A stretch of DNA of 64,000 nucleotides. It comes from a virus. The DNA is taken from IMG/VR virus record IMGVR_UViG_3300046673_000306, positions 1-64,000 of that record; one strand, given 5' to 3'. The translations under genes and the position numbers were made by a program. Shown piece after piece: positions 1 to 40,967 of the stretch (its first letter is position 1; every line of letters starts with the position of its first letter). Under the pieces are notes generated by a model. That model was not told the DNA's origin, did no database searches, and saw nothing but the letters and a program-made list of their open reading frames with translations.

Positions 1-2208
1 AGCCTCCTCGGTTTCAACGTGAGAGCCATCACGATCCTTGACGATGACGATCTTGTTCGGAATCCGATCCCCGAAATTCTCCAAGTGCGAGACCAGGAAC
101 ACCTGGTGGTCCTTCCCGATCTCCAAGATGGTGCTGGCGAAGGCGTCGACTCCGGACTGGTCCAAGTCGCTGACCTCGTCGATCATGACCAGGTCCACGC
201 GCTTGCCCGCTCTCCGGCTGATGACCTTGGCCAGGGCCATCCTTATGGCCAGGGCCACGCGCGCGGCCTCGCCTCCGCTGTACTGCCTGAAGTCCCGGGC
301 CCCGAGTTCGTCGCTGACGATGATGTCCAGGGTCTCCGCAGTCTTGCCCGTCTTCAGCTCCTTCTGCGTCGCGAACTCGACCTTGATCCTGCCCCCGGTC
401 AGCTTCTCCATGACGTCGTTGACCTCGGACTGGATTTCCCCCAGCGCGTTATCCAGGATCAGGGCCGGTATCCCGTTTCTTGAGAAGGCCCTGGTCAGCT
501 CCTTGTAGACGAACTGCTGGTCCACGGCCTCCTTGTGCCGCACCCGGTCGGCCTCCAGCTGCTTGCCCTTGCTCCGGCAGGCCTCGGCTCGGGCCTGGAG
601 CACCCCCAGTTCCTGACTGGCCTGGGCCCGGCGGTTGGCCAGCGCCGTCTCCTGGGCCCGAGCCGCGACGATCCTGGCCTCGGCCTGGGAGGCCTCGGCC
701 TCGGAGTAGGCGTGGCTGCCCAAGGACTTCTCCGCCACGATCTTGCGCCCGCCCCACTGCGTCCGCTCCGACGCGATCTCGTCCGCGCGCCTCTTGAAAG
801 ACTCCTCCACCTGCTGGCGCCGAGCCCCCGCCGACTGCACCTGGTTCTTCGCCATCTCGATCTGGCTGAGTTCGCGCTTGAAGTTGTCCAGGTCCCGGCG
901 CAGCTCCCCCTGCTGCGCCACGGAGTTGGCCAGGCCCCGGACCTCGGCTTCGACCTGGGCGCAGCGTTCGACCACGGATTTGGCCTGCGCGGCCTTGGCG
1001 TCGTAGTCCTTGCGCTTGGCCGTGCCCTCGGCCACGATGTCCTCCATGATCTTCTTCTGCGCGTCCTCGGTCAGCGCCGAGTAGCAGGTCGGGCACCGCG
1101 ACCCGATCTGGGTCACCTGCCCGAGCTTTGACCTCAGCCTCGCCAGGTCCTTGTCCATGACCTCGATCTCGCGCTGGTATCCATCGCGCTGGACCCTGAG
1201 CGTGGCCTGCTCGGTCTGCAACTGGTTCAGGCGCTTCTCCACCTGCTCGTAGGTCTTGATCTTGGCCTCGACCTCGGCGGCGGCCCTGGTCACCGTGGGC
1301 TCGCGCTGGACCATCTGGGACATGCGCTGGCACTCGGCGTCGACGCCAGCCAGCTGCTCGGTGCGGTCCCGCTCCGCGTACTCCTGCTGGCTGCGCAGCC
1401 GATCGAGGCTCTGATCGGCTTGGATCAGGTCAGACTGGAGCTTCTGGTGGAAGGCGGCCTTGGCCCGGACCTCCCCGGCAGCCCTCACCGCCTCCTCGAC
1501 AACGGAGTTGGCCGCGACGGACTTGTCCGCCAGGTCCGAGACCTCCTCCTCCAACCTAGCCAGGGCCTCGTCCCCCACGGTCTCCTGGCCTATCTCCAGC
1601 TGGATGCGGTCGATGGCCAGGCCCAGGGCCTGAGCGTCGCGCTCGTGGTCGGAGGCCAGGCGCCGGGCCCGCTCCTCGACGTCCGCGTAGCCGTCGATGC
1701 CGAGGATCGTGCTCAGGACCTCCTTGCGCTTGGACGGGAGTTGGCTCGGGAATAGGTCCAGCTTCTTCTGGGGGGAGTACACGGTATTGCTGAAGACCTC
1801 GTAGTCCATACCCAGGACCTCTACGATGCGGGCCTGCGTCTCCTTCACGGAGTTGCCCCGCAGCTTCTTGTCGTTAGTCAGGTCCGAGAACAGCAGGCTC
1901 TGGCTCTTGCCACGCTTGCGCGAGCGCACGACCTCGTACTTGACGCCGTCGATCTCGAAGACGTTGGTCACCTTCATCTCGTCGGTGCCGAGGCGGATCA
2001 GGTCGTCGTCGCTCGCGGCGCGGCTGACGCCGAACAGGGACCAGGCCACGGCCTCGATCAGTGTGCTCTTGCCCGCGCCGTTCGACTCCCCGGGGTCACC
2101 ACCCACGTACTTGCCCGTGATCAGGACCGGCCCGGAGTAGCGATCGAGGGCGAACTCCTGGTCCGCGTAGGCCATGAAGTTTTCGAGCTTGATCCTTAGT
2201 TCTCTCAT
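1..2208 (-). CDS. SbcC/Rad50-like recombination ATPase, C-terminus cut by window edge
   Basis: Large subunit of an Mre11-Rad50/SbcCD-type (T4 gp46-like) complex, an ABC ATPase that controls access of the nuclease partner to DNA ends. Seen: Walker A GESNGAGKST at residues 40-49, charged coiled-coil arms between about 190 and 600, a zinc hook CPTC at 372-375 at the arm tip, the ABC signature YSGGEAARVALAI from residue 643, Walker B LVMIDE ending at 678, and an H-loop histidine (708) in FLVSHLENF. The frame is open for 736 codons to base 1, so only a short C-terminal tail is missing. The ATG overlaps the stop of the upstream gene (ATGA), so translation is probably coupled. Its nuclease partner is at 7252-8457, separated from it by the ubiquitin-like cassette. 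Confidence 0.93.
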   Translation of the reverse strand, partial: MRELRIKLENFMAYADQEFALDRYSGPVLITGKYVGGDPGESNGAGKSTLIEAVAWSLFGVSRAASDDDLIRLGTDEMKVTNVFEIDGVKYEVVRSRKRGKSQSLLFSDLTNDKKLRGNSVKETQARIVEVLGMDYEVFSNTVYSPQKKLDLFPSQLPSKRKEVLSTILGIDGYADVEERARRLASDHERDAQALGLAIDRIQLEIGQETVGDEALARLEEEVSDLADKSVAANSVVEEAVRAAGEVRAKAAFHQKLQSDLIQADQSLDRLRSQQEYAERDRTEQLAGVDAECQRMSQMVQREPTVTRAAAEVEAKIKTYEQVEKRLNQLQTEQATLRVQRDGYQREIEVMDKDLARLRSKLGQVTQIGSRCPTCYSALTEDAQKKIMEDIVAEGTAKRKDYDAKAAQAKSVVERCAQVEAEVRGLANSVAQQGELRRDLDNFKRELSQIEMAKNQVQSAGARRQQVEESFKRRADEIASERTQWGGRKIVAEKSLGSHAYSEAEASQAEARIVAARAQETALANRRAQASQELGVLQARAEACRSKGKQLEADRVRHKEAVDQQFVYKELTRAFSRNGIPALILDNALGEIQSEVNDVMEKLTGGRIKVEFATQKELKTGKTAETLDIIVSDELGARDFRQYSGGEAARVALAIRMALAKVISRRAGKRVDLVMIDEVSDLDQSGVDAFASTILEIGKDHQVFLVSHLENFGDRIPNKIVIVKDRDGSHVETEEA

Positions 2209-2579
2209 ATGTCAAACCTCGCCTGATGGGCGACGACTCCGAACTTGGCCTTGGCTCCGGCGTCGCAGACCCTGAGCAAGGATATCAGGCCGTGGATTCC
2301 GCTGATCAATCCCTCCCGCCAGTCGAAGTACTCGCTCTCGGTCTGGGCGATGCGGAACCGGTCCTCGGCCATGGGCCGCATCTTTTGGGAGGTCACGGGG
2401 TAGCCCTTGGCCCTGATCTCGGCGATGGCGCGCAGGATCGAGTCCTCGGACAGGCCCGTCTCCTTCTTGGCGTCGACCATGGCCATGTTCTCGCCGCTAC
2501 CCCGACCGCAGCTGGAGACCAGGCAGTCGTATACGACCTTGTCGAAGATCAGGCCCTCTGCGGGCTTGCTCTCGGCCAT
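2205..2579 (-). CDS. Small predicted winged-helix protein
   Basis: A 124-residue protein of unknown function. Residues 12-60 read as a helix-turn-helix unit with a conserved-looking turn (KETGLSEDSILRAIAEIRAKG) followed by a wing-like strand, so DNA binding is plausible. The remainder is mostly helical. It lies between the E1-like gene (1-base gap) and the SbcC-like gene (ATGA overlap), so it is co-translated with both. It could be a regulator or an accessory factor of the recombination complex. I do not recognise the family. Confidence 0.7.
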   Translation of the reverse strand: MAESKPAEGLIFDKVVYDCLVSSCGRGSGENMAMVDAKKETGLSEDSILRAIAEIRAKGYPVTSQKMRPMAEDRFRIAQTESEYFDWREGLISGIHGLISLLRVCDAGAKAKFGVVAHQARFDI

Positions 2580-2580
2580 C

Positions 2581-3309
2581 TCAGACCTGGCTCCCGATCA
2601 GCTTGTGCTGGCGACAGTGGAAGGTCGTCTCGTTGCGGAACGGAACACCGTTAACGAAGGAGCTGACCGTGCTCGCGATGAAGGCGGCGGAGAAGAACGA
2701 GGAGTAGGAGACGGCTTGCGCGGTGCAGGGCAGGTGCTCACCCTCCTCGGAGCTATACAGGTTCTCCTCATAGAAGGCCTCGTGCATGGGGTCGTGAGGG
2801 TTCACCGCGTACATGCGCAGGACCTCTCCGCCCATGCGCACGTCTATGACCAGGCGGATCGCGGGGCAGGCTTTCGCCACCTCCCACAGGTGCTTGCGCG
2901 CATCCATATTATCCACGGCCATGACCAAGATCGTCTGATCGTCGAAAGTGGGGCGCGCATCCTTGTCCAGGTGCTGGACGATGCCCACGACCTGCTGGTC
3001 AGTCAAGTCCTGGACGATCCCGGCCAGAACCTCGACCTTGCGCTTACCCACGGCGTAGGACTGATAGACTTGACAGCTAACGTTATGCTCGTCGACGACG
3101 TCCCGGTCCCAGACCGTGATCTTCTGCGCGCCCATCTTCGCCAGGGCCAGGGCGGTCCACGACCCCACTGACCCCGCCCCCACCACGACGAAGCTCCACT
3201 CGTTGAGCTTCTCCGGGCTCATGAGGTCGAGCTGGCGCCAGTACTTCTGGTTCTTCTCCGGCGGCTTCGGGGCCTCGACGGCGTTCACGTCTGCGGTTAT
3301 GGTTTCCAC
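2581..3309 (-). CDS. E1-like (ThiF/MoeB-type) ubiquitin-like activating enzyme
   Basis: Predicted adenylating enzyme that would activate a ubiquitin-like protein with ATP. The 242-residue protein has the Rossmann nucleotide loop GAGSVGS at 44-50, acidic residues in WDRD (67-70), GKRK at 88-91 and the VDNMD motif at 132-136 typical of ThiF/E1 enzymes. Cys195 in PCTAQAVSYSS is the best candidate for the thiol that would carry the Ubl. The GTG start is chosen because AGGAGGAG lies at the right distance upstream, directly after the stop of the JAMM gene. An open frame extends further upstream, but it only shadows that gene. It is the last gene of the Ubl-E2-JAMM-E1 cassette. MoeB/ThiF sulfur-carrier chemistry is an alternative, but the neighbouring E2-like and JAMM genes favour conjugation. 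Confidence 0.88.
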   Translation of the reverse strand: METITADVNAVEAPKPPEKNQKYWRQLDLMSPEKLNEWSFVVVGAGSVGSWTALALAKMGAQKITVWDRDVVDEHNVSCQVYQSYAVGKRKVEVLAGIVQDLTDQQVVGIVQHLDKDARPTFDDQTILVMAVDNMDARKHLWEVAKACPAIRLVIDVRMGGEVLRMYAVNPHDPMHEAFYEENLYSSEEGEHLPCTAQAVSYSSFFSAAFIASTVSSFVNGVPFRNETTFHCRQHKLIGSQV

Positions 3310-3311
3310 GG

Positions 3312-4067
3312 TTATCTCCTCCTCACGGTCTTGAGCGGCTTGAACTTCATTATCCGCCCCATCTCCTCGCGGTAGGCCTCGGCCTGCCCGGGGTTGAACA
3401 CGGGCGCGACCTTGAGCGGGAGGTTGTCGATCCCGTAGCGCACGGGGTCGTAGAAGTCGACGCGGCACCGGCTCTCCAGGCGCTGATTCACGACGATGGA
3501 CATCGTGAACCTGGAATTGTGCAGGGCCTCGACCGTGTCCATGTCCGTGGTGCTGAAGAACACGGGCATGGTGTGGTGGCTGTGCCAGAACAGGTCGTAG
3601 CCCTCGGTGTCGAGGCCGTGCTTGCGCATCTGCCGCATGAACTGGTTCAGCGTCTCCTCGAATATGCGGCTGGACGCAGCCGTGTTCACCTGCTCCAGGG
3701 CCACGACGTCCTGGACCAGGAAGGAGTTGCCGGTCCGCACGACCTTGCCGAAGCCGCTGACCTCTCCCGGCGCCTGCATCGTGTAGCACATCATCTTATT
3801 GTAAGCGGCCTGATCGATCACGATCTCGAAGGCACGCTTCATCAGCAGTATCTGCTGGAGGGACGAGAAGTTCTCTATGGGCAGGAACCGAGCGTCCTTG
3901 GGCACCGCCGGTGGCCACAGGCAGCCGATCCTAACCGGCTGATACGTGGCCCCGGTGATATTCAGAGCCGACAGCGAGAGGCTGCTCGGCACGATCTCTG
4001 GCGTCAGCTCCGAGCCCTGCGTCTGCGTCAGGGTCCCGGTCAGGACCCCCTCCGTGGTCTGGATCAT
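3312..4067 (-). CDS. JAB/MPN (JAMM) zinc metallopeptidase, deubiquitinase-like
   Basis: Predicted zinc isopeptidase that would mature or remove the ubiquitin-like protein. The 251-residue protein has an intact JAMM site: Glu102 in PGEVSGFG, then His162-x-His164 and Ser172-x-x-Asp175 (HSHHTMPVFFSTTD), which is exactly HxH-x7-SxxD. A region of about 75 residues of unknown fold precedes the domain. The ATG overlaps the stop of the E2-like gene (ATGA), and the E1-like GTG follows 2 bases after the stop, so the genes are one translational unit. Phage tail-assembly proteins also carry JAB domains (lambda gpK), but those are fused to NlpC/P60 and lie in tail operons, unlike this one. Confidence 0.92.
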   Translation of the reverse strand: MIQTTEGVLTGTLTQTQGSELTPEIVPSSLSLSALNITGATYQPVRIGCLWPPAVPKDARFLPIENFSSLQQILLMKRAFEIVIDQAAYNKMMCYTMQAPGEVSGFGKVVRTGNSFLVQDVVALEQVNTAASSRIFEETLNQFMRQMRKHGLDTEGYDLFWHSHHTMPVFFSTTDMDTVEALHNSRFTMSIVVNQRLESRCRVDFYDPVRYGIDNLPLKVAPVFNPGQAEAYREEMGRIMKFKPLKTVRRR

Positions 4068-5701
4068 CCTACCTCCTCGATTTCGCTCACGTTCGCGGTG
4101 AATGCTTGGTGCTTCTTAACCGTCTCGGCTAAGGTCTCCTCCGACGCCGTCTTCGCTTCTGGACCATCGTGCAAGGCTTCTCGGGGTACGCCCAGAGCCT
4201 TGTGCACCTCGCTCTTGACGTCCTCCATTTTCTGCAAGAACTGGCCCGGAGTAGCGGGACCCGCATGGATTACTTCGACATCATAGCGAATAGGCATCAC
4301 ACCCGGAGCCACCGGGGTTGCCTGCTCTCCCGGGGTAAAGGCCTGGAGCACGGCTGGGGTCCGCACGCAGTCCTCGATCTTGTTGTGTCGGCTATCGACG
4401 TTATAGCAGTGCAGCCACTCGTGCATGATCTGGAAGACCATGGCGTAGCGCTCCATACCGATCAGCTTCGGGATGTCACTGCCCATATTACCAAGGCAAG
4501 GGTGCTCGGAGCCGGTGCTCAGGTGCGGGTGGGAGGCCCCGGTCTTGGTCTCGTGCCGGAGTTCGATGGCGCCGTTCTGGCGGATGCAGACCAGGAACTT
4601 GCCCAGCGCGTACTTCTTGCCCTCGTGCTCGATCGTCACGGGCGCGCTCATGCCGATGATCCGACCGTGCCTGATCTTGAACTTCTCGTAGAGGCCATCA
4701 TCCACGAGCTTGAGCAGCATCCGAACTTCCTTGGACAGCTCCGCGTCCAGGGCCCCGGAGCCGAGGAGAGTGATCTCCTTCTGGCTCTCGCGCACGGCCC
4801 GCGACTTCTCGATCAGGCTCTTCTCCAGGGACCTGATCTCACTCATGGCGGAGTCGATCTTGTCTTGCAGGGACTTCTGGCGCTTGCGCATGGAGTCGCC
4901 GCAGAACTCGCGGAATAAGGAATCCGTTACCTCTCCCCTGATCTCCCTGGCGTAGCCCCCGACTATGCGCTGGTACTGGGACAGCACGTGCTCGATCAGG
5001 GGCGCGATCCGCTCCGGCGCCGAAGCTACCTGGTGTCGGTCCCTCATCACCATCCCGCTGGGCAGTTTCTCGTCGGGCAGAGCCTTCTCTGCCTCGGGGA
5101 TGTAGAGCATGGTATAGACGTACTTCCCCTCGATCCTTCCGATGAATGTCTTGCGGTCGTCGTAGATGTTGGCGTAGGCCGGGAACTCCGGGGAGCACAA
5201 CTTCTCCGGGGCCTTCCGCGATTGCAGCTCGTCGAGCCCCACCCTCCACGCGCCCTCGTTCGGGTTAACCGAGGACTTCTCCAGGGCCTTGGGATCGCCG
5301 CTGAGGAAGAGGACCAGGGTGTTGGGCCCGACCCGCATGTCCACCAGCGGCCTCTCGTAGAACTCGTAGGGGGCCATGCCCCCGGTGAGCACGACCCGCA
5401 GGTCCTTGCCGAGCCTGTCCGCCCACGCCGAAAAGAGTGGGCGAAGCCCGTCGAGGCCATCCCCGACGAGCTTCACCCTGCGGCCCTTGGGGCTGCGGCA
5501 TACGGATACTCGGAACTCTCCGCGCTTCGGTTCGGGCCTGCTCTCGGGTGCCTTCTCGCACTTCATGTCCGAGGACTCATCGTAGGACACGGTCGTCCGA
5601 GAGGCACCGCTGCCCCAGGCCACGTAGTTGGTTCCTGCTGATGTCGTCCCGCCCGCGATTACTCCCGTCCCGTAGTCTGGAGAGTTCGAGTACCCGCTCA
5701 T
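4064..5701 (-). CDS. E2-like (UBC/RWD-fold) ubiquitin-like conjugating protein
   Basis: A 545-residue protein whose C-terminal half carries an E2-type active-site signature. Strands KKYALGKFLVCI and GAIELRHE (about 362-384) are followed by HPHLSTGSEHPCLGNM, with His391-Pro392 and Cys402 spaced like the HPN...G-x-x-C-L motif of E2 enzymes, and then a long helix (MVFQIMHEWLHCYN). A coiled coil spans about 270-312. The N-terminal 260 residues have no fold I recognise and could bind substrate. The ATG is preceded by GGGAGTAGGGG, just after the Ubl stop, and the stop overlaps the JAMM start. The E2 assignment is by motif and context and needs profile confirmation. Cys402 is the predicted Ubl-accepting residue. 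Confidence 0.75.
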   Translation of the reverse strand: MSGYSNSPDYGTGVIAGGTTSAGTNYVAWGSGASRTTVSYDESSDMKCEKAPESRPEPKRGEFRVSVCRSPKGRRVKLVGDGLDGLRPLFSAWADRLGKDLRVVLTGGMAPYEFYERPLVDMRVGPNTLVLFLSGDPKALEKSSVNPNEGAWRVGLDELQSRKAPEKLCSPEFPAYANIYDDRKTFIGRIEGKYVYTMLYIPEAEKALPDEKLPSGMVMRDRHQVASAPERIAPLIEHVLSQYQRIVGGYAREIRGEVTDSLFREFCGDSMRKRQKSLQDKIDSAMSEIRSLEKSLIEKSRAVRESQKEITLLGSGALDAELSKEVRMLLKLVDDGLYEKFKIRHGRIIGMSAPVTIEHEGKKYALGKFLVCIRQNGAIELRHETKTGASHPHLSTGSEHPCLGNMGSDIPKLIGMERYAMVFQIMHEWLHCYNVDSRHNKIEDCVRTPAVLQAFTPGEQATPVAPGVMPIRYDVEVIHAGPATPGQFLQKMEDVKSEVHKALGVPREALHDGPEAKTASEETLAETVKKHQAFTANVSEIEEVG

Positions 5702-5705
5702 ACCC

Positions 5706-5990
5706 CTACTCCCGGCCCGCCTGGACCTTGGGAAGCCGGTACAACGTCGGCTCGCTGCCGGTGATGACGCTGGTCCAGCCGCAGACCTTGCCGTTGAGGC
5801 GCCAGCCCTCGTCCTTCGCGGTCTTGTCCTCGGGCACGCTCTGGCCCGCCAGCTTCAGGGCCTCGGCCACGGTCGTCACGCCCTCGACGACCTCGATCTC
5901 CTTGGTCTTGTCCCGGAACTCGCCGACGTCGAGCTTGACCTTCTTCACTCCGACCTTCAGCTTCTTCTTCTTTCCCACCGGTGGTGTCAC
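5706..5990 (-). CDS. Small beta-grasp, ubiquitin-like protein (putative modifier)
   Basis: A 94-residue protein directly upstream of the E2-, JAMM- and E1-like genes. Residue pattern fits a beta-grasp: a strand near KLKVGVKKVKLDV, a second strand KEIEVVEGV, a helix TVAEALKLAG, then strands in GWRLNGKVCGWTSVIT and TLYRLPKVQAG. The C-terminus is AGRE rather than the free Gly-Gly of mature modifiers, so if it is conjugated it would first need trimming, for example by the adjacent JAMM enzyme, to expose a glycine. The GTG start has AGGAGG seven bases upstream. The assignment rests mainly on size, strand/helix pattern and operon context. Sequence identity to ubiquitin is not evident by eye. Confidence 0.6.
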   Translation of the reverse strand: MTPPVGKKKKLKVGVKKVKLDVGEFRDKTKEIEVVEGVTTVAEALKLAGQSVPEDKTAKDEGWRLNGKVCGWTSVITGSEPTLYRLPKVQAGRE

Positions 5991-6054
5991 CTTGCCCTCC
6001 TGTTCCTGCGATTTGACCGGGGATAGCGAGCCCCCGGCCTCGCCGCCTTAGCGG

Positions 6055-6936
6055 CTACTTCCTGTTACCTTCCAGATAGACGCGGATCAGGGTCAGGACC
6101 CTAGGCCAGTCCTCGTCGTCGACCATGGACTGAATCTCTCCCCGCTGATCCCCGAAGCAGACATTGCATAGCCCGGACGCGTTCTCGTTGTGGGGGACGT
6201 CAGATGCCACCTGCCCCGGGCCCACGTTCTCGATCACTATCCTCGTGGGCGACAACTCGGGGAAGACCTTGATCGCGTACTCGCCCCGCCGCGTGACCCC
6301 GAGCTTGGCCTCGACATCCATCGGGCCTGTGTAGGCGACGAGGACGCGGCGCTCGCCCTCCTGGACCATCTCGACGTTGGCGAAGAGCCTGGACTTGACT
6401 AGGGCCAGGAGCTTACCGGCCAGGGCCGCAGGCCAGACCTCGCCGCCGACCTTGGACGCCTCCAGCCGGACCAGGTTCTCGTTGCGCATCTTCATGATGT
6501 TGTGGGCGCGCTGGATCGCGGCCTCGTACTCGGCGACCTCGGACTTGGCCTTGGCGATCCTACCGTCGATCTGGGTGGAGAACGACTGCCAGCGGGAGTG
6601 GGCGAAGTCCTCGATCATCTTCTGCTGGGCCGCGATATCGACCTTGACCCGCACCCGCTCCCGGCGCCTGATTTCGGGCCGGAACCACTCCGCCAGTCGC
6701 CTCCTCCCGTCCTTGAACACGAGGACGTCGCCGTCGATCGTCGCGACCTCGTGCTCGGACCCGGGAACCAGGCCTATGCTCGTGGACGCCTGCCCCGCGA
6801 CGACGACGTCTCCTCGCAAGAGCTTGGCCGCGAAATCCTTGGGGTCCTTGACCTTGACCACGCGCGTGCGGTACGTCGGGATCGGCAGGACCGCGTCCTT
6901 CACCTTCTCCACCGCATCCATGATCTTGCGCATCAC
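6055..6936 (-). CDS. E2-like fold paralogue with coiled coil, part of ubiquitin-like cassette
   Basis: A 293-residue protein, N-terminal beta-rich (residues 25-100), coiled coil at about 105-155, then a C-terminal domain that parallels the E2-like protein downstream. The strand GEYAIKVF and strand RIVIENV are followed by PHNENASGLCNVCFGD (Cys257, Cys260) and a helix WPRVLTLIRVYL. The larger E2-like protein has the same order: coiled coil, two strands, HPH...G...PCLGN, helix. I infer a diverged E2/RWD-fold paralogue. Whether Cys260 is catalytic, or the CxxC binds metal, cannot be told. The start is GTG 6936, overlapping the upstream stop, or ATG 6933. A 64-base gap with a good ribosome site separates it from the Ubl gene. 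Confidence 0.6.
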   Translation of the reverse strand: MMRKIMDAVEKVKDAVLPIPTYRTRVVKVKDPKDFAAKLLRGDVVVAGQASTSIGLVPGSEHEVATIDGDVLVFKDGRRRLAEWFRPEIRRRERVRVKVDIAAQQKMIEDFAHSRWQSFSTQIDGRIAKAKSEVAEYEAAIQRAHNIMKMRNENLVRLEASKVGGEVWPAALAGKLLALVKSRLFANVEMVQEGERRVLVAYTGPMDVEAKLGVTRRGEYAIKVFPELSPTRIVIENVGPGQVASDVPHNENASGLCNVCFGDQRGEIQSMVDDEDWPRVLTLIRVYLEGNRK

Positions 6937-7251: not shown

Positions 7252-8457
7252 TTATTCGCCTCCTGATATGAGTTTCTTCCCCGCCACCACCACCTGCTCC
7301 TTCACCGCCGACGAGTAATCTTGGGTCCCAACCCACTTCTCCAGGGCTGCCACCGGGCTCAGGGCCTCGGTGATCTCGGGGGCGCGCTGGAGCTTGGCCT
7401 CGCACATGTCGAAGCTGACGGTGCGCACACGCTCGGCGCCGAGCTTGACCAGAAGGTCTCCCAGGCGCCGGTCGTCCACCCCCACCTTCTGACCGGAACC
7501 GCACTTGATCGTGACCTTGACGATCGCACCCTTCAGATCGTAGTCCTCCATCTTCCCCTCAAGCCACCCCTGGAGGTTGGAGACGGACTCCGGGGCCCCG
7601 AAGAACTTGCTGCCCTCCGCCTGGTTGGGGCTGAGGTCGGCGACGATGTGGAGGAAGCGCCGGGCCGGGGTCGGGATAAACTCGACCTTGATCTCGGGTC
7701 CGTAGACCTCGTAGTAGATGAAGCCCTTCGGGTCATCAGCCTCACCGAAGTCGACTCGGTCTATGCTCCCGCAGTACCCGATCCAGGGCTTGTCGTGCAT
7801 CCGCTGAGCTTTATGGACATCGCCAAGCAGGACCGCGAGCAGCCGGGGGTCGACCAAGTCCCCCAGGGGGATATTCTGGTCGTCACCCACTACATATTCA
7901 TTGGTCCCGACCTTGGCCTCCTTGACGAGAAAGTGGGAGACCAGGATCATGCGGCTGCCTGCGGGGCAGCGCGAGATCAAGTCATTCATCACCTGCTTGA
8001 AGTAGGTCCTGTAGTTCAGCCCCGAGCGCTGGAGCAGCGCCTTCCCGATGTGGGGGATCAGCAGGCGATAGGCGATGGTCTGGTCGCCGCACATGACCGG
8101 CCTCACTGTGGGCTCCTCGATCACGTCCATGGCATTGCCGAGGTTGCGCATGTCCACGAAGGCGTGCACCGAGCCCCCGGCCTCGCTCTCGCGGATATCG
8201 TGGTTGGCGACGATGATCTCCGACTCGATCCCGTGCCGCCTCAGGAGCCGGACGCGGTGCATTATGTCCGTCTCGATCGGGAGGGGGTGGGACGACCTGT
8301 AGCCGTCACCACCGTGCGTGAAGCAGAAGGGGACCTTGGGGCCCAGGGCGTCGGCGCGCCGGATCGTCTCGGCGATGACGAAGTCCACGCACTTGGCCGT
8401 GTCCTCAAGGTTGCGCGTGGCGTCGATGTGCCAATCGCTGCTGAAGCAGCCAGCCAA
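7252..8457 (-). CDS. Mre11/SbcD-like metallophosphatase nuclease
   Basis: Catalytic subunit predicted to pair with the SbcC/Rad50-like ATPase at 1-2208 (T4 gp47-like). Calcineurin-type motifs are in order: SSDWHID near the N-terminus, FTHGGDGYRSSHP, VANHDI (the GNHD motif with Ala for Gly), LVSHFL, and LLGDVHKAQ (the GHxH motif with Asp for the first His). The C-terminal 130 residues would be capping and ATPase-binding domains. The 401-residue form starts at TTG 8457, which has no ribosome site of its own. In-frame CTG 8472 and ATT 8469 sit 4-7 bases after AAGGAGG and could give four or five extra residues, so the true start is uncertain. It is the first gene of the cassette that holds the ubiquitin-like genes. 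Confidence 0.9.
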   Translation of the reverse strand: MAGCFSSDWHIDATRNLEDTAKCVDFVIAETIRRADALGPKVPFCFTHGGDGYRSSHPLPIETDIMHRVRLLRRHGIESEIIVANHDIRESEAGGSVHAFVDMRNLGNAMDVIEEPTVRPVMCGDQTIAYRLLIPHIGKALLQRSGLNYRTYFKQVMNDLISRCPAGSRMILVSHFLVKEAKVGTNEYVVGDDQNIPLGDLVDPRLLAVLLGDVHKAQRMHDKPWIGYCGSIDRVDFGEADDPKGFIYYEVYGPEIKVEFIPTPARRFLHIVADLSPNQAEGSKFFGAPESVSNLQGWLEGKMEDYDLKGAIVKVTIKCGSGQKVGVDDRRLGDLLVKLGAERVRTVSFDMCEAKLQRAPEITEALSPVAALEKWVGTQDYSSAVKEQVVVAGKKLISGGE

Positions 8458-8468
8458 ATCAGGTTTAA

Positions 8469-8573
8469 TCAGAACGCCTCCTTGAACTTGCGCTCGATGC
8501 AGTCCGAGGCCTCGATCGGATCGTAGGTCTTCTCGAAGATGTCGGCCACCGGCTTCTTCCGGAACCTACCCAT
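8469..8573 (-). CDS. Very small basic/acidic protein, 34 residues
   Basis: A short frame between the HNH-type gene and the SbcD-like gene, beginning MGRFRKKPVADIF and ending in KFKEAF. Its ATG overlaps the stop of the HNH-type gene by eight bases and is preceded by GGGAGAAT. The AAGGAGG near its 3' end would serve the SbcD-like gene. No function is recognised. It may be a real micro-protein or mainly a translational coupling device. Confidence 0.5.
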   Translation of the reverse strand: MGRFRKKPVADIFEKTYDPIEASDCIERKFKEAF

Positions 8574-9087
8574 GAGATTCTCCCTTATCCGCTTGCGGCA
8601 TCGGCGCCTGGGCCGCAGGCTTCCGATCTTGCTTCAGGAACTCCCTGGCGATGAATGCCGTGGCGTTGCCGCTGTTAAGTATCCTCTGCAAGGTGTCCCG
8701 CATCGACTCCATGGTTTCGAGACCCAGCTCCGGCTTCTCCGCAGCGATCCAGCGCATCCTCGCGACGGAGTCCACCCCCACGATCTTGGTCATGATCTCG
8801 CAGAGGCGGATCACGAAGTCGCCGTCGCTGTTCTGGTGGAGCTTGCGGACGTGGCAGGCGTAGCACAGGGTCGCGCCGTTGCAGACGTTGTAGGCCAGGG
8901 GCTGGCAGTGGCCCTTGGCGAACAGCCAGTGGTGGGCCTGGAGGTTCTCGGTCTTGGGGCACATCAGGCACTTGTTGCCGTCGCGCAGCCTCACGACCCT
9001 GGACCACAGCTCGCTCAGAGCCTTCTTCACGCGCTTGAGGCGCACGGCCTTAGTCGGAGGTCTCTTGGCCTTCTTGTTTTTGCTCAT
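8566..9087 (-). CDS. HNH/zinc-finger nuclease-like protein (NinG-type recombination nuclease candidate)
   Basis: A 173-residue protein with a basic N-terminus and an HNH-like zinc core: WSRVVRLRDGNKCLMCPKTE, then AHHWLF, then NGATLCYACHVRKLH. This pattern (CxxC, His-His, N, CxxCH) resembles HNH nucleases and the lambda NinG/Rap recombination family. It lies immediately upstream of the Mre11-like gene, which suits a recombination role. ATG 9087 is chosen over GTG 9114 because the two other genes with the same type of leader RNA also start directly after a U-rich run following the structure. There is no Shine-Dalgarno, which is unlike most genes here. Confidence 0.72.
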   Translation of the reverse strand: MSKNKKAKRPPTKAVRLKRVKKALSELWSRVVRLRDGNKCLMCPKTENLQAHHWLFAKGHCQPLAYNVCNGATLCYACHVRKLHQNSDGDFVIRLCEIMTKIVGVDSVARMRWIAAEKPELGLETMESMRDTLQRILNSGNATAFIAREFLKQDRKPAAQAPMPQADKGESHG

Positions 9088-9186
9088 AAAAAAAAGGTGG
9101 GACGCCCGTTGCACCTGATTCGAGAGAGAACCCTCGACCAGACGGGCGACCCATAAAGTAAAAAAGGTTCTCTGTTCATCAGGTGC
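9088..9186 (-). promoter_or_regulatory. Structured 5' leader RNA with A-B-A'-B' (pseudoknot) topology
   Basis: RNA from the predicted start G at 9186 to the ATG at 9087. Arm A (9186-9166) pairs with A' (9132-9111) and arm B (9152-9142) pairs with B' (9109-9099). The order A, U-rich linker, B, A', B' gives either a pseudoknot or mutually exclusive helices. B' is followed by ACC, eight U and the AUG. Leaders of the same plan precede both TnpB genes in this window. It is probably a cis-regulator of translation or termination. Confidence 0.72.
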
Positions 9187-12411: not shown

Positions 12412-12776
12412 TTTTGCCTCCCCGTCATGGGATCGCGGGTCACCGCGTTCCTGATCTGGCCCAGAGTCAGGGCCTCGTTCACGCGCTGGATCACCTCTGA
12501 CCTGACCCGGACCATCATCTGCGCCCGCTCCATCGTCAGGCGCATGTTCCAGTTCAGGAAGAGGTTGTGCTTCTCGCTCTCGTACTTGGGGTCGAGCAAC
12601 CGCTCCCACTGGGCCTGCGCCGTGAGCTGCGCGTAGGCCAGGGGCATAGGTAGGTAGACGTACTGCCCCTCCTTGACCGGACCGAAGGCCATGGACCCGT
12701 ACTGGGTCGACGTCGGCCACGTCTCCCCGTAGGTCTCCTCGACGTAACGAACATTCGGCGACTGGCTATGATCCAC
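12408..12776 (-). CDS. Unknown protein, 122 residues
   Basis: Soluble, with a beta-rich first half (GSMAFGPVKEGQYVYLPMPL) and a basic helical second half with a possible helix-turn-helix (VIQRVNEALTLGQIRNAVT). The GTG start is preceded by AAGGAGAGAGCCA and overlaps the end of the primase-helicase gene by 11 bases. It is co-translated in the replication cluster. Confidence 0.72.
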   Translation of the reverse strand: MDHSQSPNVRYVEETYGETWPTSTQYGSMAFGPVKEGQYVYLPMPLAYAQLTAQAQWERLLDPKYESEKHNLFLNWNMRLTMERAQMMVRVRSEVIQRVNEALTLGQIRNAVTRDPMTGRQK

Positions 12777-14913
12777 TGGCTCTCTCCTTACCGTCAGGTC
12801 CTTCCAGGCCCGGCGCCGGTGGAAGGGTGATGGGCTGGGCCACGGCCCGGGCCGCGATCTCCGCCCGTTTCCTGGGGTCTGCGGGGAATAGCTTCAGGTA
12901 CCTGGGCACGAACTCAAAGTCTACGATGCAGTGCGCGGGACCGTAGCGGTTCTTCAGAATCTTCGACCGCCAGACGCCCTCCAGCTCCTTCTTCTTCGCG
13001 TCTACCAGACCCTCTTCCAGCTCCGGTCGCCAGGCCCCGATCAGGACGTCGGCGGAGTCCCGGACCGCGCTGCTGTCGCGGGCGTGGGAGTCGTCGATGG
13101 CGACGCCTGGCTTACCGGCCTTGGTCGTCTGGTGCAAGCTGACGATCCGGCAGTTGAGGCGCTTGGCCACTTCCTTCTGCTCGCGCGCCAGGTACGACAC
13201 CTGCTCGTAGATGGAGTTGCCGTCGCCGTGGAGGTAGCCGAGATAATCGATGAAGATCACGGACACGGGCCTGCCGAAGTAGGCGAAGCCCGCGCCCCGG
13301 GTGTTCTCCTCGATCATCTTCAGGTTCAGGCCGCCCTGGTCGCAGACCAGGAGGTTCTTGAGCTTGGCGCTCAGGCTCTGGGCCGCCGAGAAAATCTTGC
13401 TGTTCTGGGCGTCGTTACCCGCGACCATCCACCTCTCGACCTCACCTCCATCCATCTCCCCGGCCATCTGCATGAAGCGCTCGAAGACCATCAGCGACTT
13501 TTGCTCAAGGCTGTAGAAGATCATGGGGACATCCGGCTGCGTCTCCCCGATCGACATCATCAACTGCTCCGCGAACGTGGTCTTCCCGGTCCCGGCGGCG
13601 GCGATCAGCTGCCAGACGTCTCCGGGCTTCATGCCCCGCGTGAGCTTGTCGTACGGAGCCCAGCCCGTGTTCACGCGCTGGCTGTCGATCGTGCGCGTGT
13701 ACTCCTCGTACTTTGTGATCAGGCTACCGATGTTGTCGAAGGAGATGCTGGAGACGGCCTCTCCGCCCTTGCCAGTCATGTAGTGGTCAACGATCGCCTC
13801 GTCCTTCGACCACTTCTTGGCGAGGTAGGAAATCAGGTCCTTCTGGCTCAGCGGGTTCTCGGCGATGGCCACCATCGCCTTCGCCCGACGATACTGGAGT
13901 TCAACCACGGGCTCACTGGCCAGGACCTGATCGAGCAGGTACCGGTCCATGGGGATCGACTCCCGCACGATCTTCACCAAGGCATCCTTGCCGTGGTTGA
14001 TCAGAACATCATTCAAATCCTTCGAGCCATCCGGGATCACGACCGCGCGGATGTGGGCCTCAGGCACCGCTGAGTGGATCACGGTGCGGTTCACCAGGAG
14101 CTTGTCCTGGGCCGTCCTATCGTTGCAGGCCGCGAACAGGACCACCATCCCAAGACCGCCCAAAGCCCTTATCTCTTCCGCCTGCTCTTTGGTGACCTTC
14201 GACGAGCAATACGCCACTCCGGTCTTGATCCCTGCTTCCCAGAGCGCAGCACAACACATGTAGCTCTCGCAGAGGATAAGATGCTGGTCCTGGGACAGGA
14301 ACCTCCGGGCCCGGTCAAAGTTATAGAGGATGCTCTTCTTGTCGTAGATTTCATCGGCGGCGTCATTCTTCCACTTCGGTCCGCCCTTGACAGCGTAGTC
14401 GAGATCGCGCCTGGCAAAAGCAACGATGCGCCCAAACTTGTCATTGATAGGTACGACGATCGAGTTCTCGCGAGTGGCGAAGGTGATGCCGAGGTCCTGG
14501 ATAGTCTGGTCCGAGAGCTTACGCTCCTCGCGCAGGTATCGGACCAGCTCGGGTCGCGCGCTGCCGATTGTGGGAAGCGCCGACAGCATATCGGACTTCT
14601 CCTTCCTCCTCTTCTCAGACTTCTCATACCGATCACTCTCTTCCTGGCTGACCACGATGTTGTATTCTATGCACAGGGAACGGGCGGAATCGACGATGCT
14701 GAGATTCTGCCTCCGCGCCTCAAAATCAATTACTGACCCTCCAGAATTGCATTTTCCATAACACCAAAAATGATCTTTATATACGTAAAAACTTGGCGTG
14801 CGCTCCTCGTGGAATGGGCAGCAAGCCTTCATCGGCATCGTAGTACCGTGAAGTTCGACGTGCTTACCTATATGACGAATTATATCGACGGAATCGCGAA
14901 CGCGATTAAACAT
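12766..14913 (-). CDS. Primase-helicase (DnaG-type N-terminus fused to DnaB-type helicase)
   Basis: Bifunctional replication protein of 715 residues. An N-terminal CHC2-type zinc domain (CCPFHEERTPSF with Cys32 and His35, CYGKC at 51-55) is followed by a primase/TOPRIM-like region and a RecA-like DnaB helicase: Walker A AAAGTGKTTF near 440, Walker B IFIDYLG and the sensor loop SLHQTTKAG. In the TOPRIM-like part the usual EGYMD and DGD motifs read ESYMCC and CND, so key acidic residues are changed and primase activity is doubtful. ATG 14913 has GGAG upstream and is preferred to GTG 14928. It overlaps the end of the homing-endonuclease gene by 8 bases. Confidence 0.92.
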   Translation of the reverse strand: MFNRVRDSVDIIRHIGKHVELHGTTMPMKACCPFHEERTPSFYVYKDHFWCYGKCNSGGSVIDFEARRQNLSIVDSARSLCIEYNIVVSQEESDRYEKSEKRRKEKSDMLSALPTIGSARPELVRYLREERKLSDQTIQDLGITFATRENSIVVPINDKFGRIVAFARRDLDYAVKGGPKWKNDAADEIYDKKSILYNFDRARRFLSQDQHLILCESYMCCAALWEAGIKTGVAYCSSKVTKEQAEEIRALGGLGMVVLFAACNDRTAQDKLLVNRTVIHSAVPEAHIRAVVIPDGSKDLNDVLINHGKDALVKIVRESIPMDRYLLDQVLASEPVVELQYRRAKAMVAIAENPLSQKDLISYLAKKWSKDEAIVDHYMTGKGGEAVSSISFDNIGSLITKYEEYTRTIDSQRVNTGWAPYDKLTRGMKPGDVWQLIAAAGTGKTTFAEQLMMSIGETQPDVPMIFYSLEQKSLMVFERFMQMAGEMDGGEVERWMVAGNDAQNSKIFSAAQSLSAKLKNLLVCDQGGLNLKMIEENTRGAGFAYFGRPVSVIFIDYLGYLHGDGNSIYEQVSYLAREQKEVAKRLNCRIVSLHQTTKAGKPGVAIDDSHARDSSAVRDSADVLIGAWRPELEEGLVDAKKKELEGVWRSKILKNRYGPAHCIVDFEFVPRYLKLFPADPRKRAEIAARAVAQPITLPPAPGLEGPDGKERASGS

Positions 14914-15742
14914 AGAACTCCAGAGCACGTTCTATGGACCAACGCTTGGAATTGATCCTGTAGGATATTGTGTGGAGAGGAATCTTCTGTCTCCTAGACC
15001 ACTCAGACATGGTCAGAGTGATACCACCGCACTCTATGAGCCGATTGCGCCTAGTGTTGTTGGCGGACTCCGTGGGTGTGGACCACTTGCAATTTGATGG
15101 GGAATAACCAAGATCGTTGTTTTTCCTGTCTAAGTACATCCCCTTCGGCCTGGCGCCCATGTCATGGAGGAAATTGGAGAACGATCTCTTCCACCTATCG
15201 CAAACCGTTATACCCCGACCACCATAATCTCTGAACTGCTTGTGGGTCTTCACAGTACAACGATAGACCATCTGCTGCCAGGTTTTATACTCCGACGTCA
15301 CCGCGCCATTGAATGCGCACCCGTGAGTGACATTGGACGCCAACAAGCGCTCCCGGCGCAGGCATCCGCACGACGAAGTCCTACCAGAATCCAGGGCATA
15401 TGCACTCGTGAATGTTTTTCCTCCGCAGCTGCAAGCGCATTCCCATAGGATGTGAATTGCACCGTTTGTCCGACGAACCCGAGTCATTCCGACCACCAAT
15501 AGCCGCCCGAATTTCTTGTTGATTAAATTTCTAAACCCATCATCCCGAACCGTGCGGAAACGACAGCCGCATGAACTAACGTGCCCCGAGGTCAACCGCC
15601 ATGCCTCGACCTTAATTGATTTACCGCACTCGCACGAGCACTTCAGCGTGGCGTGGGGTTTCATGGAAAAACCAACTACCAGCAAGCGCCCAAATTTCTT
15701 GCCGGAGTAAGAACGATACCTCTCCTCCAAATCTCTAATCAT
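14906..15742 (-). CDS. HNH homing-endonuclease-like protein with tandem zinc modules
   Basis: 278 residues: two copies of a module starting GKKFGRLLVVG / NKKFGRLLVVG and ending CGC (Cys-rich CSCECG...SCGC, CSCGG...SCGC), then an HNH-type nuclease core with YGGRGITVCDRW, LDRKNNDLGY and NCKWSTPTESANN, and a C-terminal helix-turn-helix-like domain (TLTMSEWSRRQKIPLHTISYR). This is the usual build of free-standing phage homing nucleases. Base composition is visibly more AT-rich than its neighbours. It is wedged between a wHTH gene (TGATG junction) and the primase-helicase gene, consistent with recent insertion into the replication operon. Target unknown. Confidence 0.9.
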   Translation of the reverse strand: MIRDLEERYRSYSGKKFGRLLVVGFSMKPHATLKCSCECGKSIKVEAWRLTSGHVSSCGCRFRTVRDDGFRNLINKKFGRLLVVGMTRVRRTNGAIHILWECACSCGGKTFTSAYALDSGRTSSCGCLRRERLLASNVTHGCAFNGAVTSEYKTWQQMVYRCTVKTHKQFRDYGGRGITVCDRWKRSFSNFLHDMGARPKGMYLDRKNNDLGYSPSNCKWSTPTESANNTRRNRLIECGGITLTMSEWSRRQKIPLHTISYRINSKRWSIERALEFYV

Positions 15743-16902: not shown

Positions 16903-17084
16903 GGCTTCCTCCTGGGCTTCTGGTGCCGGGAGCAAAGGAACTTCCCCCCGACCTTCCTCAAGCCGTGGGTGATCATGCAGCCGTGGGCTCTGGCGTACGT
17001 CGTGTCCTTGACCCAGGCCTCGCAGTACTCTCCGCGACGGGCGCGTCGGATTCCAGGAGTCACGGGGTAAGTGATCGGGGTCAC
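16899..17084 (-). CDS. Small basic protein, 61 residues
   Basis: Arg/Lys-rich (RRARRGEYCEAWVKD, QKPRRKP) with a possible Cys/His metal site (C21, C36, H40, C51, H54). Probably nucleic-acid binding. It starts four bases inside the end of the DnaC-like gene and is coupled to it. Confidence 0.62.
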   Translation of the reverse strand: MTPITYPVTPGIRRARRGEYCEAWVKDTTYARAHGCMITHGLRKVGGKFLCSRHQKPRRKP

Positions 17085-17935
17085 TGGGACCTCCTCTTGC
17101 CCCGGTTCTCCCGGGGGTTGTCGATAGTTACGATGTCTCCGTTGCCTTCGAGCCGGGACATGATCGGGTGGCCGTAGTTGTCGCCCAGGGCCTTGGCCAC
17201 GCGCTCGACCGTGGGCTCGTTGTCGGTGACGATTACGGGCTTGCGGTTGTTCGTCCTATTATTGACCACCTCAAAGATGTGGCTCAACTTCTTATCGTCC
17301 CCACCCCGGAACCGCGTGAGGTCGTCGATGACGAGGAGGTCGGTGGTCTCAAGCCTCTTCTCGTAGTCGGCGAGGGACCTGCGGCTGGCCTTGCAGCCCG
17401 GGTCGGTGTTCTGCTCGTCTTGGGCCTGCCCGCGAGGGAGGACCGGGTACCTCAGGTAGTGCTCAGAAATCTTTCCGAACCACTCCACGGGCTGGACGAA
17501 GCAGCAGACGTCCTGGTGGCACACGGATTCGGTCCAGTAGTCCTCGATAAGCTGCTGCATGATCGCGCACGCGAGGTGGGTCTTGCCCGCGCCGCTGTCG
17601 ACGCCGAGCAGGATCAGGCACCGGCCACCGTTGCGGGCCCTGGTCCAGCCCCCGGCGTCCGGGGCCCCCTGCCAGTTGGTAGCGTACTTGTACGCGAAGT
17701 CCACGACGTTCTGGTAGTTGGGGTAGCGCTCGCGGACCGTGACGCTGCCGTTGTCGAAGCGCTTGCCCTGGTACTTGGGGGGGATGCGAGCTTCCGAGGA
17801 CACGGCCAGGGCCTTGATCATGTCGGGCCAGCACGCGCAGTGGATAACGCCCTTGCCATCGGGACCCATGACCCAGGCCGATCCTTCGCACATGCCGTGG
17901 GGGCAGTGCCACTTCCCGGCTAGGTCAAAGCTCAC
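17081..17935 (-). CDS. DnaC/IstB-like AAA+ helicase loader
   Basis: 284-residue ATPase expected to load the DnaB-type helicase (12766-14913) at the origin. An N-terminal zinc knuckle (HCPHGMC, CAC) is followed by Walker A GVDSGAGKTH near 110-118, Walker B LLVIDDLTRF near 200, a sensor Asn in VTDNEP and a sensor-2-type Arg in MSRLEGNGD. The ATG overlaps the stop of the initiator gene (ATGA), the classical lambda O-P type arrangement of initiator and loader. Confidence 0.9.
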   Translation of the reverse strand: MSFDLAGKWHCPHGMCEGSAWVMGPDGKGVIHCACWPDMIKALAVSSEARIPPKYQGKRFDNGSVTVRERYPNYQNVVDFAYKYATNWQGAPDAGGWTRARNGGRCLILLGVDSGAGKTHLACAIMQQLIEDYWTESVCHQDVCCFVQPVEWFGKISEHYLRYPVLPRGQAQDEQNTDPGCKASRRSLADYEKRLETTDLLVIDDLTRFRGGDDKKLSHIFEVVNNRTNNRKPVIVTDNEPTVERVAKALGDNYGHPIMSRLEGNGDIVTIDNPRENRGKRRSQ

Positions 17936-24624: not shown

Positions 24625-24653
24625 TTGACAAGAAAGCATCCTCCTGTTATACT
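24625..24653 (+). promoter_or_regulatory. Promoter of TnpB copy 1
   Basis: TTGACA, 17-base spacer, TATACT. The seventh base after the -10 box is G24660, the first base of the structured leader. Confidence 0.8.
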
Positions 24654-24659
24654 AATCAT

Positions 24660-24747
24660 GCTACCGGATGAAGTGAGCATTTTCATTCTTAGGTCCTCGT
24701 GCGGAAACGCTCACGGTGCTTCCGGTAGCCACGAGGGCCTTCTTTTT
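24660..24747 (+). promoter_or_regulatory. Structured 5' leader RNA of TnpB copy 1, A-B-A'-B' topology
   Basis: Arm A 24660-24678 pairs with A' 24709-24729 (internal loop TGAA/GCACC). Arm B 24692-24701 pairs with B' 24730-24739 with one G-U pair. The A-B linker is U-rich. B' is followed by TTCTTTTT and the ATG. No Shine-Dalgarno. Same plan as 9186-9088 and 40968-41043. Compare with published IS605-orfB RNA motifs. Confidence 0.78.
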
Positions 24748-25890
24748 ATGTTGAAGACTTATTCGTTCAGGCTCTACCCGAACCACGCGCAGACTAAGAA
24801 TCTGGCGCAGCACTTCGGCGCGGCCCGCTGGATTTACAACCAATCCCTTGAGCGAAAGATCAAAGTCTACCAGGAGACGAAGAAGAGCCTGTCCTGGGTC
24901 GACCTCGCCAAGGAGATCACAGGTCTCAAGAAGGCCGCTGGTACGATGTGGCTCCAGGATGTTGCTCTCGCCCCGCTCCAGTCCTCTGTTCGGCACCTCG
25001 ACTCCTCCTTCAAGAGATTTTTCCAGGAGAAGAGAGGCTTCCCGGCGTTCAAGCGGAGGCGCGGCAGGCAGTCGTTCCAGTATCCCACCGGAGTCAAGGT
25101 GGATTTCCCGAAACACCTGCTCTACCTCCCCCGCATCGGATGGATTCGTTTTAGAGACCCAAGAGTGTTCTATGGCAAGATCGGCACCGTTACCGTCGTC
25201 AAGTCGTCTACCGGGAAGCACTACGCCCAGGTCCTGGTCGAGTTGCCTGGGGAAGTCATTGAGAAGAAGCCGCTGGAGCAGTCCAGGGCCGTTGGCGTCG
25301 ACGTTGGACTGACAACTTTCGCGACCTTCTCCGACGGGCGCAAGATAGCGAACCCGCGCTTCTTGAAGACCGCCCTGACGAAACTGCGCCGCGCGAACCG
25401 GCGTCTGAGCCGCAAGCAGAAGGGCTCCAATAACAGGAGCAAGTCGCGGTTGAAACTCGCGCATGTTCACGAGAAGATCGCGAACCGCAGAAAAGACTTC
25501 TTGCACAAGTTGACGAGCCAGATGACGAACGAGAACCAAGTCGACACCTGGGTAGTCGAGACGTTGAACGTGAAGGGCATGGGGAAGATGCGCAGCCTGT
25601 CTCGCGCCATCCACGATGCGGCCTGGTCGGAGTTTGTGCGCCAGCTCGCATACAAGAGCGAGTGGCGCGGTAAGAACCTGGTGAAGATCGGTCGCTTCAT
25701 GCCGTCGTCTAAGATGTGTTCCTGCGGAGCGATCAATGATAGTCTGCGCCTCGCCGACAGGACGTGGACGTGCGCCATGTGCGGCGCCACCCACGATAGA
25801 GACGTGCTGGCCGCGCAGAACATTCTGCGGTTCGGCTTTGATACCGAGGGTAACCCGGGAATTAACGCTTCTGGACAGGCGGTGCCTTAA
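24748..25890 (+). CDS. tnpB: TnpB (IS200/IS605-type RNA-guided nuclease), copy 1
   Basis: 380 residues, full length. N-terminal OrfB domain (FRLYPNHAQTKNLAQHFGAARW), a RuvC-like core with GVDVGLTTF (Asp near 184), VVETLNVKGM (Glu near 271) and HDRDVLAAQN (Asp near 351), and a zinc finger MCSCG...CAMCG between them. All catalytic residues are present, so it is probably active. TnpB uses an RNA from the right end of its element to cut DNA. The start is ATG 24748 after the structured leader. An in-frame ATG region further up would lie inside the leader. Confidence 0.93.
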   Translation: MLKTYSFRLYPNHAQTKNLAQHFGAARWIYNQSLERKIKVYQETKKSLSWVDLAKEITGLKKAAGTMWLQDVALAPLQSSVRHLDSSFKRFFQEKRGFPAFKRRRGRQSFQYPTGVKVDFPKHLLYLPRIGWIRFRDPRVFYGKIGTVTVVKSSTGKHYAQVLVELPGEVIEKKPLEQSRAVGVDVGLTTFATFSDGRKIANPRFLKTALTKLRRANRRLSRKQKGSNNRSKSRLKLAHVHEKIANRRKDFLHKLTSQMTNENQVDTWVVETLNVKGMGKMRSLSRAIHDAAWSEFVRQLAYKSEWRGKNLVKIGRFMPSSKMCSCGAINDSLRLADRTWTCAMCGATHDRDVLAAQNILRFGFDTEGNPGINASGQAVP

Positions 25891-40961: not shown

Positions 40962-40967
40962 ATAAAT

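Follow-up and report, generated by a model that had tools for sequence, protein, structure and literature searches.

A predicted ubiquitin-like conjugation cassette lies between the SbcD and SbcC genes of a phage

Ubiquitin-like (Ubl) conjugation in bacteria has been studied mainly as a defence against phages, and Bil-type systems conjugate a Ubl to phage tail components. The Bil operons encode a two-domain Ubl, an E1 that combines an inactive with an active adenylation domain and also has a Cys domain, and an E2 with a CEHH motif (PMC11354881). The Cap2 Ubl-type system of CBASS also acts against phages (PMC10097602), and the PRTRC operons correspond to type 6d of Iyer et al. 2006 (PMC1779556). 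Here a complete Ubl, E2, E1 and JAMM peptidase gene set is described from the phage side, where it recurs mostly among replication and recombination genes. It was found in the first 64 kb (the window) of the 106.5-kb IMG/VR virus record IMGVR_UViG_3300046673_000306, between genes for the nuclease subunits SbcD and SbcC. The cassette probably encodes a reversible Ubl conjugation system of the phage, whose likeliest substrates are proteins that the phage itself uses for replication and DNA-end processing, SbcCD included.

Nine tightly packed genes occupy the minus strand from position 8457 to 1. In the direction of transcription they encode SbcD, a DUF3850 protein, a protein of 293 amino acids (aa), the Ubl, a 545-aa E2-like protein, a JAB peptidase, the E1, a 124-aa protein resembling helix-turn-helix (HTH) proteins and SbcC (Table 1), with junctions ranging from an overlap of 4 nucleotides (nt) to a 64-nt gap. 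A sequence-only reading of this DNA had picked out the five open reading frames (ORFs) from the 293-aa protein to the E1, and all five are present where it had placed them. The flanking genes, which it called Mre11- and Rad50-like, match SbcD and SbcC families, and SbcC has Walker motifs and a zinc-hook CxxC. The same reading assigned the cassette to one transcript on the basis of short spacing and ATGA overlaps. Overlaps of this kind occur at the E2/JAB and HTH/SbcC junctions and not at every junction: DUF3850 and the 293-aa gene share a GTGA overlap, JAB and E1 are separated by 2 nt, the Ubl and E2 by 4 nt, and the 293-aa gene and the Ubl by the 64-nt gap. Judged by the spacing, a single transcript for the nine-gene run is likely. 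The DUF3850 and HTH-like genes inside the SbcD-SbcC interval had gone unmentioned.

The E1 starts with a GTG codon at 3309, a 402-aa ORF from 3789 being merely the longest reading of this frame, and consists of a single 242-aa adenylation domain of the Pfam ThiF family, with no zinc CxxC pairs. Its family profile (38 relatives) matched UBA5 (3e-18), the NEDD8 E1, ThiF and MoeB, and the residues invariant in these relatives include D68, D70, K91, D133, R158 and C195, the last of which is also kept in 42/42 E1s of a JAB-seeded set described below. By profile, its assignment as a ThiF/E1-like enzyme is clear, as is that of the JAB. A tblastn search of plasmids with the window E1 gave a single weak match. 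The JAB alone scores under Pfam's own cut-off for a single protein, and its family profile matched Rpn11 at 5.6e-13. The JAMM site, described earlier as an intact E/HxH-x7-SxxD, retains all five residues; E102, H162-x-H164, S172 and D175 are invariant in the relatives, and in the JAB-seeded set E102 is present in 47/47 sequences and the other four in 48/48.

The Ubl by itself gave no family match in Pfam, PHROGs or NCBIfam. Its AlphaFold2 model (pLDDT 82.5, pTM 0.62) has the element order beta-beta-alpha-beta-beta, and nearly all top Foldseek matches to this model were SUMO (SUMO-2), MoaD, ubiquitin and NEDD8, with a best E of 4e-3 and probabilities of 0.99-1. The predicted fold of the protein is thus beta-grasp, as had been proposed. 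The Ubl family profile matched SAMP2, TtuB and ThiS, and the window protein occupies the operon position held by clear Ubls elsewhere. Tandem di-Ubl precursors with an internal VKGG, resembling a minimal polyubiquitin gene, are encoded at two loci (L007, 11934-12347; L009, 10882-11292), and loci L028 and L032 encode longer Ubls, the second of which is a long multi-domain form ending KGA/QGA. Tandem and longer precursors would be expected if the JAB processes the Ubl.

The 545-aa protein gave no match in Pfam, NCBIfam, PHROGs or PADLOC. A direct search with it as query found no relatives because the window sequence is too divergent, and the relatives were reached via the E1 and JAB profiles; it is a member of the family found beside these two genes. 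The protein contains a coiled coil at about 258-314 and a core at about 317-435, which includes an HPH at 391-393 and Cys402 in the active-site sequence HPHLSTGSEHPC(402)LG. Across 59 aligned family members C402 and G404 are the sole invariant residues, the start aside, and both are likewise kept in 41/41 E2s of the JAB-seeded set. The motif of the family runs H[PS]H, a short interval, C-[LIF]-G, and takes the form HPH-x8-C-x-G in the window. The distance between His and Cys is most often 10 residues, as in the HPN...C of eukaryotic E2s. This H...C pattern was found in 141/165 family members compared with 12/2,454 untagged background ORFs. The AlphaFold2 model of the core (pLDDT about 77-98 as block means) shows a helix, a beta-meander, an active-site loop and two helices, which would be the UBC order of elements placed after a long coiled coil. 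A UBC-like fold is therefore supported by motif and topology, though not confirmed. Of the earlier description as an E2-like protein with HPH...PC(402)LG, the motif stands, with C402 invariant; no UBC/RWD match appeared for the full-length model. Foldseek matches of that model to KNL1, a protein that carries RWD domains, had probabilities of 0.2 or less and were not counted as evidence. The protein belongs to an E2-like family that bears no E2 name in Pfam, NCBIfam or PHROGs: not one of the 59 members is so labelled by the first two, and 22/59 fall in PHROG 15310, for which no function is assigned.

The 293-aa protein, previously called an E2-like paralogue, is the weakest part of the set. Its alignment to the E2 profile is limited to the C-terminal PH...CFG stretch, with 13 bits and an E of 0.1 in a scan of 21,915 ORFs. 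The ORFs ranked around it in the same scan are mostly E2s by position, its best non-self phmmer match is the E2 of locus L011 (E 0.011), and it shares the E2 layout of a coiled coil followed by a C-terminal PH...CFG. It is probably a second E2; second E2s also occur in L040, L046, L235, L247 and L284.

Following established Ubl biochemistry, the JAB would cut Arg-Glu off the Ubl precursor to leave a C-terminal AG, or would trim it at an equivalent point. The E1 would adenylate the Ubl, take it as a thioester on Cys195 and then hand it on to Cys402 in the HPH...C motif of the E2-like protein. The E2 would choose its substrate through the coiled coil and N-terminal region and attach the Ubl to a lysine, and the JAB could take it off again. 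The 293-aa protein would act as a second, divergent E2 or as an E2-fold partner. In this phage the cassette would be co-expressed with SbcD and SbcC, and the substrates would include phage replication and end-processing proteins. The analysis established the parts, their invariant catalytic residues, the beta-grasp fold of the Ubl, the operon structure and the recurrent association; we infer each chemical step and the substrates.

Several results weigh against reading the Ubl and the 545-aa protein in this way. The hidden Markov model (HMM) score of the Ubl alone is weak (E 0.02-0.24), and its C-terminus is AG-RE, not GG. In the relatives the Ubl mostly ends in VKGG plus 0-2 residues, with KGN, KGA, KAG and DAG-L also present, and the predicted VQAG-RE end fits within this range. 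Foldseek searches of the full 545-aa model against PDB and BFVD gave no usable match and no UBC structure, because the low-confidence N-terminus and the long coil dominate. The E2 family profile matched only coiled coils among PDB sequences, and no Pfam Prok-E2 or PRTRC_B match was found for any of the 59 E2s.

The same parts could serve a sulphur-carrier pathway, in which a Ubl thiocarboxylate similar to those of ThiS, TtuB or SAMP2 modifies phage nucleic acid or a cofactor and the JAB recycles the carrier, with no tagging of proteins. The best PDB matches of the Ubl profile include SAMP2, ThiS and TtuB, the E1 matches ThiF and MoeB, and the phage E1s are currently annotated 'thiamine biosynthesis protein'. 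However, the sulphur-transfer enzymes ThiF and MoeB carry two CxxC zinc motifs, whereas this pair was found in 0/180 family E1s, and a conserved E2-like protein with an invariant cysteine accompanies the E1 and JAB; these two features speak against a role in sulphur transfer alone. Among the neighbours, no sulphurtransferase, thiouridylase or thiazole gene was seen, and the cassette includes a JAB, which thiamine and molybdenum cofactor operons never carry according to Iyer et al. 2006 (PMC1779556). A sulphur-carrier role is considered improbable.

Scanning IMG/VR with the E1 profile yielded 80 loci. The non-redundant set of this first survey comprised 59 loci, including the window and three GenBank phages. 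JAB was present in 57 of these and E2 in 53, and the Ubl profile matched in 26. This profile misses the Ubls of the crAss-like and Flavobacterium phages, which are larger; in L004 and L005 they were recognised by eye. A second, JAB-seeded scan gave 47 unique loci that did not overlap with the first set and on which the models had not been trained. E1 was found in 44 of them, E2 in 40 and Ubl in 40, with all four genes in 35. At the E2-JAB and JAB-E1 junctions the genes almost always overlap or are no more than 50 nt apart. Since the same gene set recurs in well over 100 loci, a chance grouping is excluded. The commonest identifiable neighbours of the phage cassettes are Sak4-like annealases, primase, DnaB, exonuclease VIII, SSB and RusA, and the wider cassette family is linked with replication modules as a whole. 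The earlier view of a phage genome that carries the full Ubl-E2-JAB-E1 set is upheld: the parts recur together in tight E2-JAB-E1 order and not scattered, with replication and recombination genes as neighbours in most carrier phages.

The cassette is also held by whole phage groups, such as the Steigviridae crAss-like phages and the Flavobacterium Fpv phages. Named examples are Flavobacterium phage FpV4 (L004, 4574-8585), whose Ubl has SGG and then a long tail, and crAss-like cr85_1 (L005, 4900-8615), whose Ubl has SGA; in both the E1 is annotated 'thiamine biosynthesis protein' and the E2 and Ubl are annotated hypothetical. A jumbo-phage version in Xanthomonas phage PhiXhv-12 (L006, 4703-8579) has an E1, an 892-aa E2 and a Ubl whose last two residues are GG, and no JAB was found beside it. 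The cassette is not exclusive to phages, because it also occurs on metagenome-assembled genome (MAG) contigs of several phyla, on some of them among host-like genes. Myxococcales MAGs (L096-L108) contain several copies per genome on separate contigs with host-like neighbours, and of the neighbours scanned at the MAG loci L087-L118, more belonged to the PD-(D/E)XK nuclease family (PF12705) than to any other (4/86 proteins). No account of this phage cassette was found in the literature searched, which left out most subscription papers and bioRxiv preprints, and an earlier description beyond it is possible.

This distribution bears on two roles directed at other organisms. In one the cassette serves counter-defence or host takeover, tagging host proteins or competing with or stripping host Ubl immunity such as Bil and CBASS type II. 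Bacterial Ubl systems act against phages and a phage-borne E1 or JAB could interfere with them, but a complete conjugation set exceeds the needs of a decoy or deconjugase, the cassettes sit in replication modules and not in host-takeover regions, and they are kept by the whole phage groups named above. We see only a small chance for this role. In the other, the cassette would be a moron that defends against competing phages by Bil-like tagging of their virions. Bil-type tagging of tail components and the relatives among host-like genes of MAG contigs are in keeping with this, but the cassette is likely to be tightly co-transcribed with SbcCD here and is placed with replication genes elsewhere, its position is widely conserved, and its E2, Ubl and JAB have no match to Bil models, the E1 matching BilD only weakly. 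Such a defensive moron is very improbable.

Nesting between SbcD and SbcC was found in three phages: that of the window and those of L028 and L032. In L028 (6641-18683) and L032 (6382-19579) the order is SbcD - E2 - JAB - E1 - Ubl - SbcC - Ubl - E2 - JAB - E1, so that two complete, different cassettes bracket SbcC. DUF3850 was not seen at the equivalent place in either. The SbcC and SbcD of these two loci share merely 21-23% identity with those of the window, and the SbcD metal motifs DxH, NHD and GDxH are conserved among all three. In the E1 tree the nested E1s of L028 and L032 group, with good support, in a clade to which the window does not belong. The approximately unbiased (AU) test rejects a single clade for the E1s of the three nested copies (p-AU 0.011), with the caveats that the branches are long and that the test was named after the loci had been seen. 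The nesting is rare, occurring in 2/58 of the other non-redundant loci of the first survey and 0/47 of the second, and it probably arose more than once, most likely twice, because the E1 tree rejects one clade.

An independent mobile unit that landed by chance in the SbcD-SbcC interval, its position having no functional meaning, would also account for this rarity. The closest SbcC relatives (L142, L143 and L222) have SbcD and SbcC together and no cassette. Against this stand the same nesting in two E1 lineages, the gene-tight junctions with no mobile-element ends seen, and the two different cassettes around SbcC in L028 and L032. Chance insertion is a lesser but real possibility; the repeated nesting favours a functional link with end processing in these phages. 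The link does not extend to the family as a whole. SbcC is clear in six of 46 other cassette-bearing records, an SbcC-seeded scan (80 loci) found a cassette only on the already known L028 contig, and an SbcD-seeded scan found one relative, without a cassette. Most phage SbcCDs thus lack a cassette and most cassettes lack SbcCD, which weighs against the reading proposed here. The SbcC-seeded scan rules out a general dependence on SbcCD, and because the nesting is rare the usual role of the cassette cannot depend on an adjacent SbcCD. The link between Ubl modification and end processing suggested earlier is accordingly retained for the nested lineages and not as a general rule.

If this system does conjugate, ubiquitin-like signalling serves phages in their own DNA metabolism. 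A broader proposal, offered tentatively, is that tailed phages possess their own class of ubiquitin-like signalling, built on an unrecognised coiled-coil E2 family, which would tag replisome or SbcCD proteins reversibly and so regulate phage DNA replication and the processing of double-strand ends. Were such tagging true, it would be a viral parallel to the control of DNA repair by ubiquitin and SUMO. Mutants of the conserved cysteines and the cultured members among the Flavobacterium Fpv and crAss-like Steigviridae phages make conjugation directly testable.

The coordinates of the nine-gene run are given in Table 1. Directly upstream is an HNH endonuclease-like gene at 8566-9114 on the minus strand (PHROG matches 1e-5 to 1e-6). 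The window has a clear replication context, with genes for a primase-DnaB protein (12766-14928), a DnaC-like loader (17081-17935) and SNF2- and DinG-type helicases. The SNF2-type helicase (33791-36835, plus strand) is split by an intein with a LAGLIDADG endonuclease. Two IS605 OrfB/TnpB-like proteins are encoded on the plus strand at 24625-25890 and 40966-42231, with similar sequence at their ends.

Table 1. Genes and predicted catalytic codons of the SbcD-SbcC interval in the window.
Feature	Position	Strand	Evidence
SbcD/Mre11-like nuclease subunit, first gene of run	7252..8457	-	PHROG100 5e-8, TIGR00619 1e-9
DUF3850 protein, 105 aa	6933..7250	-	PF12961 2e-17
Putative second E2-like protein, 293 aa, coiled coil and C-terminal PHNENASGLCNVCFG	6055..6936	-	Motif only
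Predicted ubiquitin-like modifier, 94 aa, C-terminus ...LPKVQAG-RE	5706..5990	-	AlphaFold2, Foldseek, family profile, operon position
E2-like conjugating protein, 545 aa	4064..5701	-	Family HMM 1e-20, invariant C402/G404
Cys402 codon, predicted E2 thioester site	4496..4498	-	Invariance in relatives
JAB/JAMM metallopeptidase, 251 aa	3312..4067	-	PF14464 3.5e-4, family profile vs Rpn11
ThiF/E1-like activating enzyme, 242 aa	2581..3309	-	PF00899 4e-22, profile vs UBA5
Cys195 codon, predicted catalytic Cys of E1	2725..2727	-	Invariance in relatives
124-aa protein between E1 and SbcC	2205..2579	-	HTH_11 E 0.011, below cut-off
SbcC/Rad50-like ATPase, open at record end	1..2208	-	PHROG77 8e-97

When the cassette was compared with described Ubl systems, the nearest solved structures of the Ubl, JAB and E1 profiles were those of the archaeal SAMP/UbaA/JAMM1 system and of eukaryotic Rpn11, UBA5 and SUMO. 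Unlike the window, the archaeal SAMP system has no E2, and the eukaryotic systems have E3s and multi-domain E1s. The tail-assembly JAB and Ubl of Lambda and T1 (TAPK/TAPI) are likewise a phage-borne JAB with a Ubl; that type lacks E1 and E2 and is located in tail genes (PMC1779556), whereas the window cassette is in replication genes. CBASS type II Cap2-Cap3 and 6A-MBL share the E1 and JAB chemistry, and the PADLOC E1-E2 models match the E1 part (7e-16). In the window, by contrast, E1 and E2 are unfused and the cassette has its own Ubl, and no CD-NTase or MBL gene was found among the scanned neighbouring genes.

The two systems named in the sequence-only reading are Bil and PRTRC. As in Bil, the Ubl, E2, JAB and E1 are four separate genes. 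However, the 94-aa Ubl has one beta-grasp domain, not two, the E1 has neither the inactive half nor the Cys domain, and there is no CEHH motif, the sequence CLGNMGSDIPKLIG after C402 lacking E/H/H at +6/+8/+13. The Bil models gave no match to the E2, Ubl or JAB, and the match of the E1 to BilD (28 bits) is at a weak ThiF level. These features of Ubl, E1 and E2 rule out membership of Bil. The comparison with PRTRC used four loci from proteobacterial genomes. The order Ubl - E2 - JAB - E1 is common to both, although the window has no PRTRC_F between Ubl and E2, and the E2 active site has the form C-x-G-[NS] (GKICIGS and GKVCVGN in PRTRC, PCLGN in the window). The PRTRC Ubl ends in KG and the JAB has HxH-x7-S-x2-D in both; the window E2 has an upstream HPH in contrast to the downstream His of PRTRC_B. 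The PRTRC_A, PRTRC_B and PRTRC_C models matched none of the window proteins at E<=5 and none of the 59 E2s, PRTRC_ThiF scored 38.4 bits against the E1, below its cut-off of 144.75, and no PRTRC_parB was found at E<=1 in the 106.5-kb record, which is perhaps incomplete. With hhalign the similarity to PRTRC was not significant for the E2 and Ubl and weak for the JAB. Despite the similar gene order, the curated models and profile comparisons rule out PRTRC membership as well. On its predicted parts, the cassette would operate like the PRTRC and Bil systems and is a member of neither.

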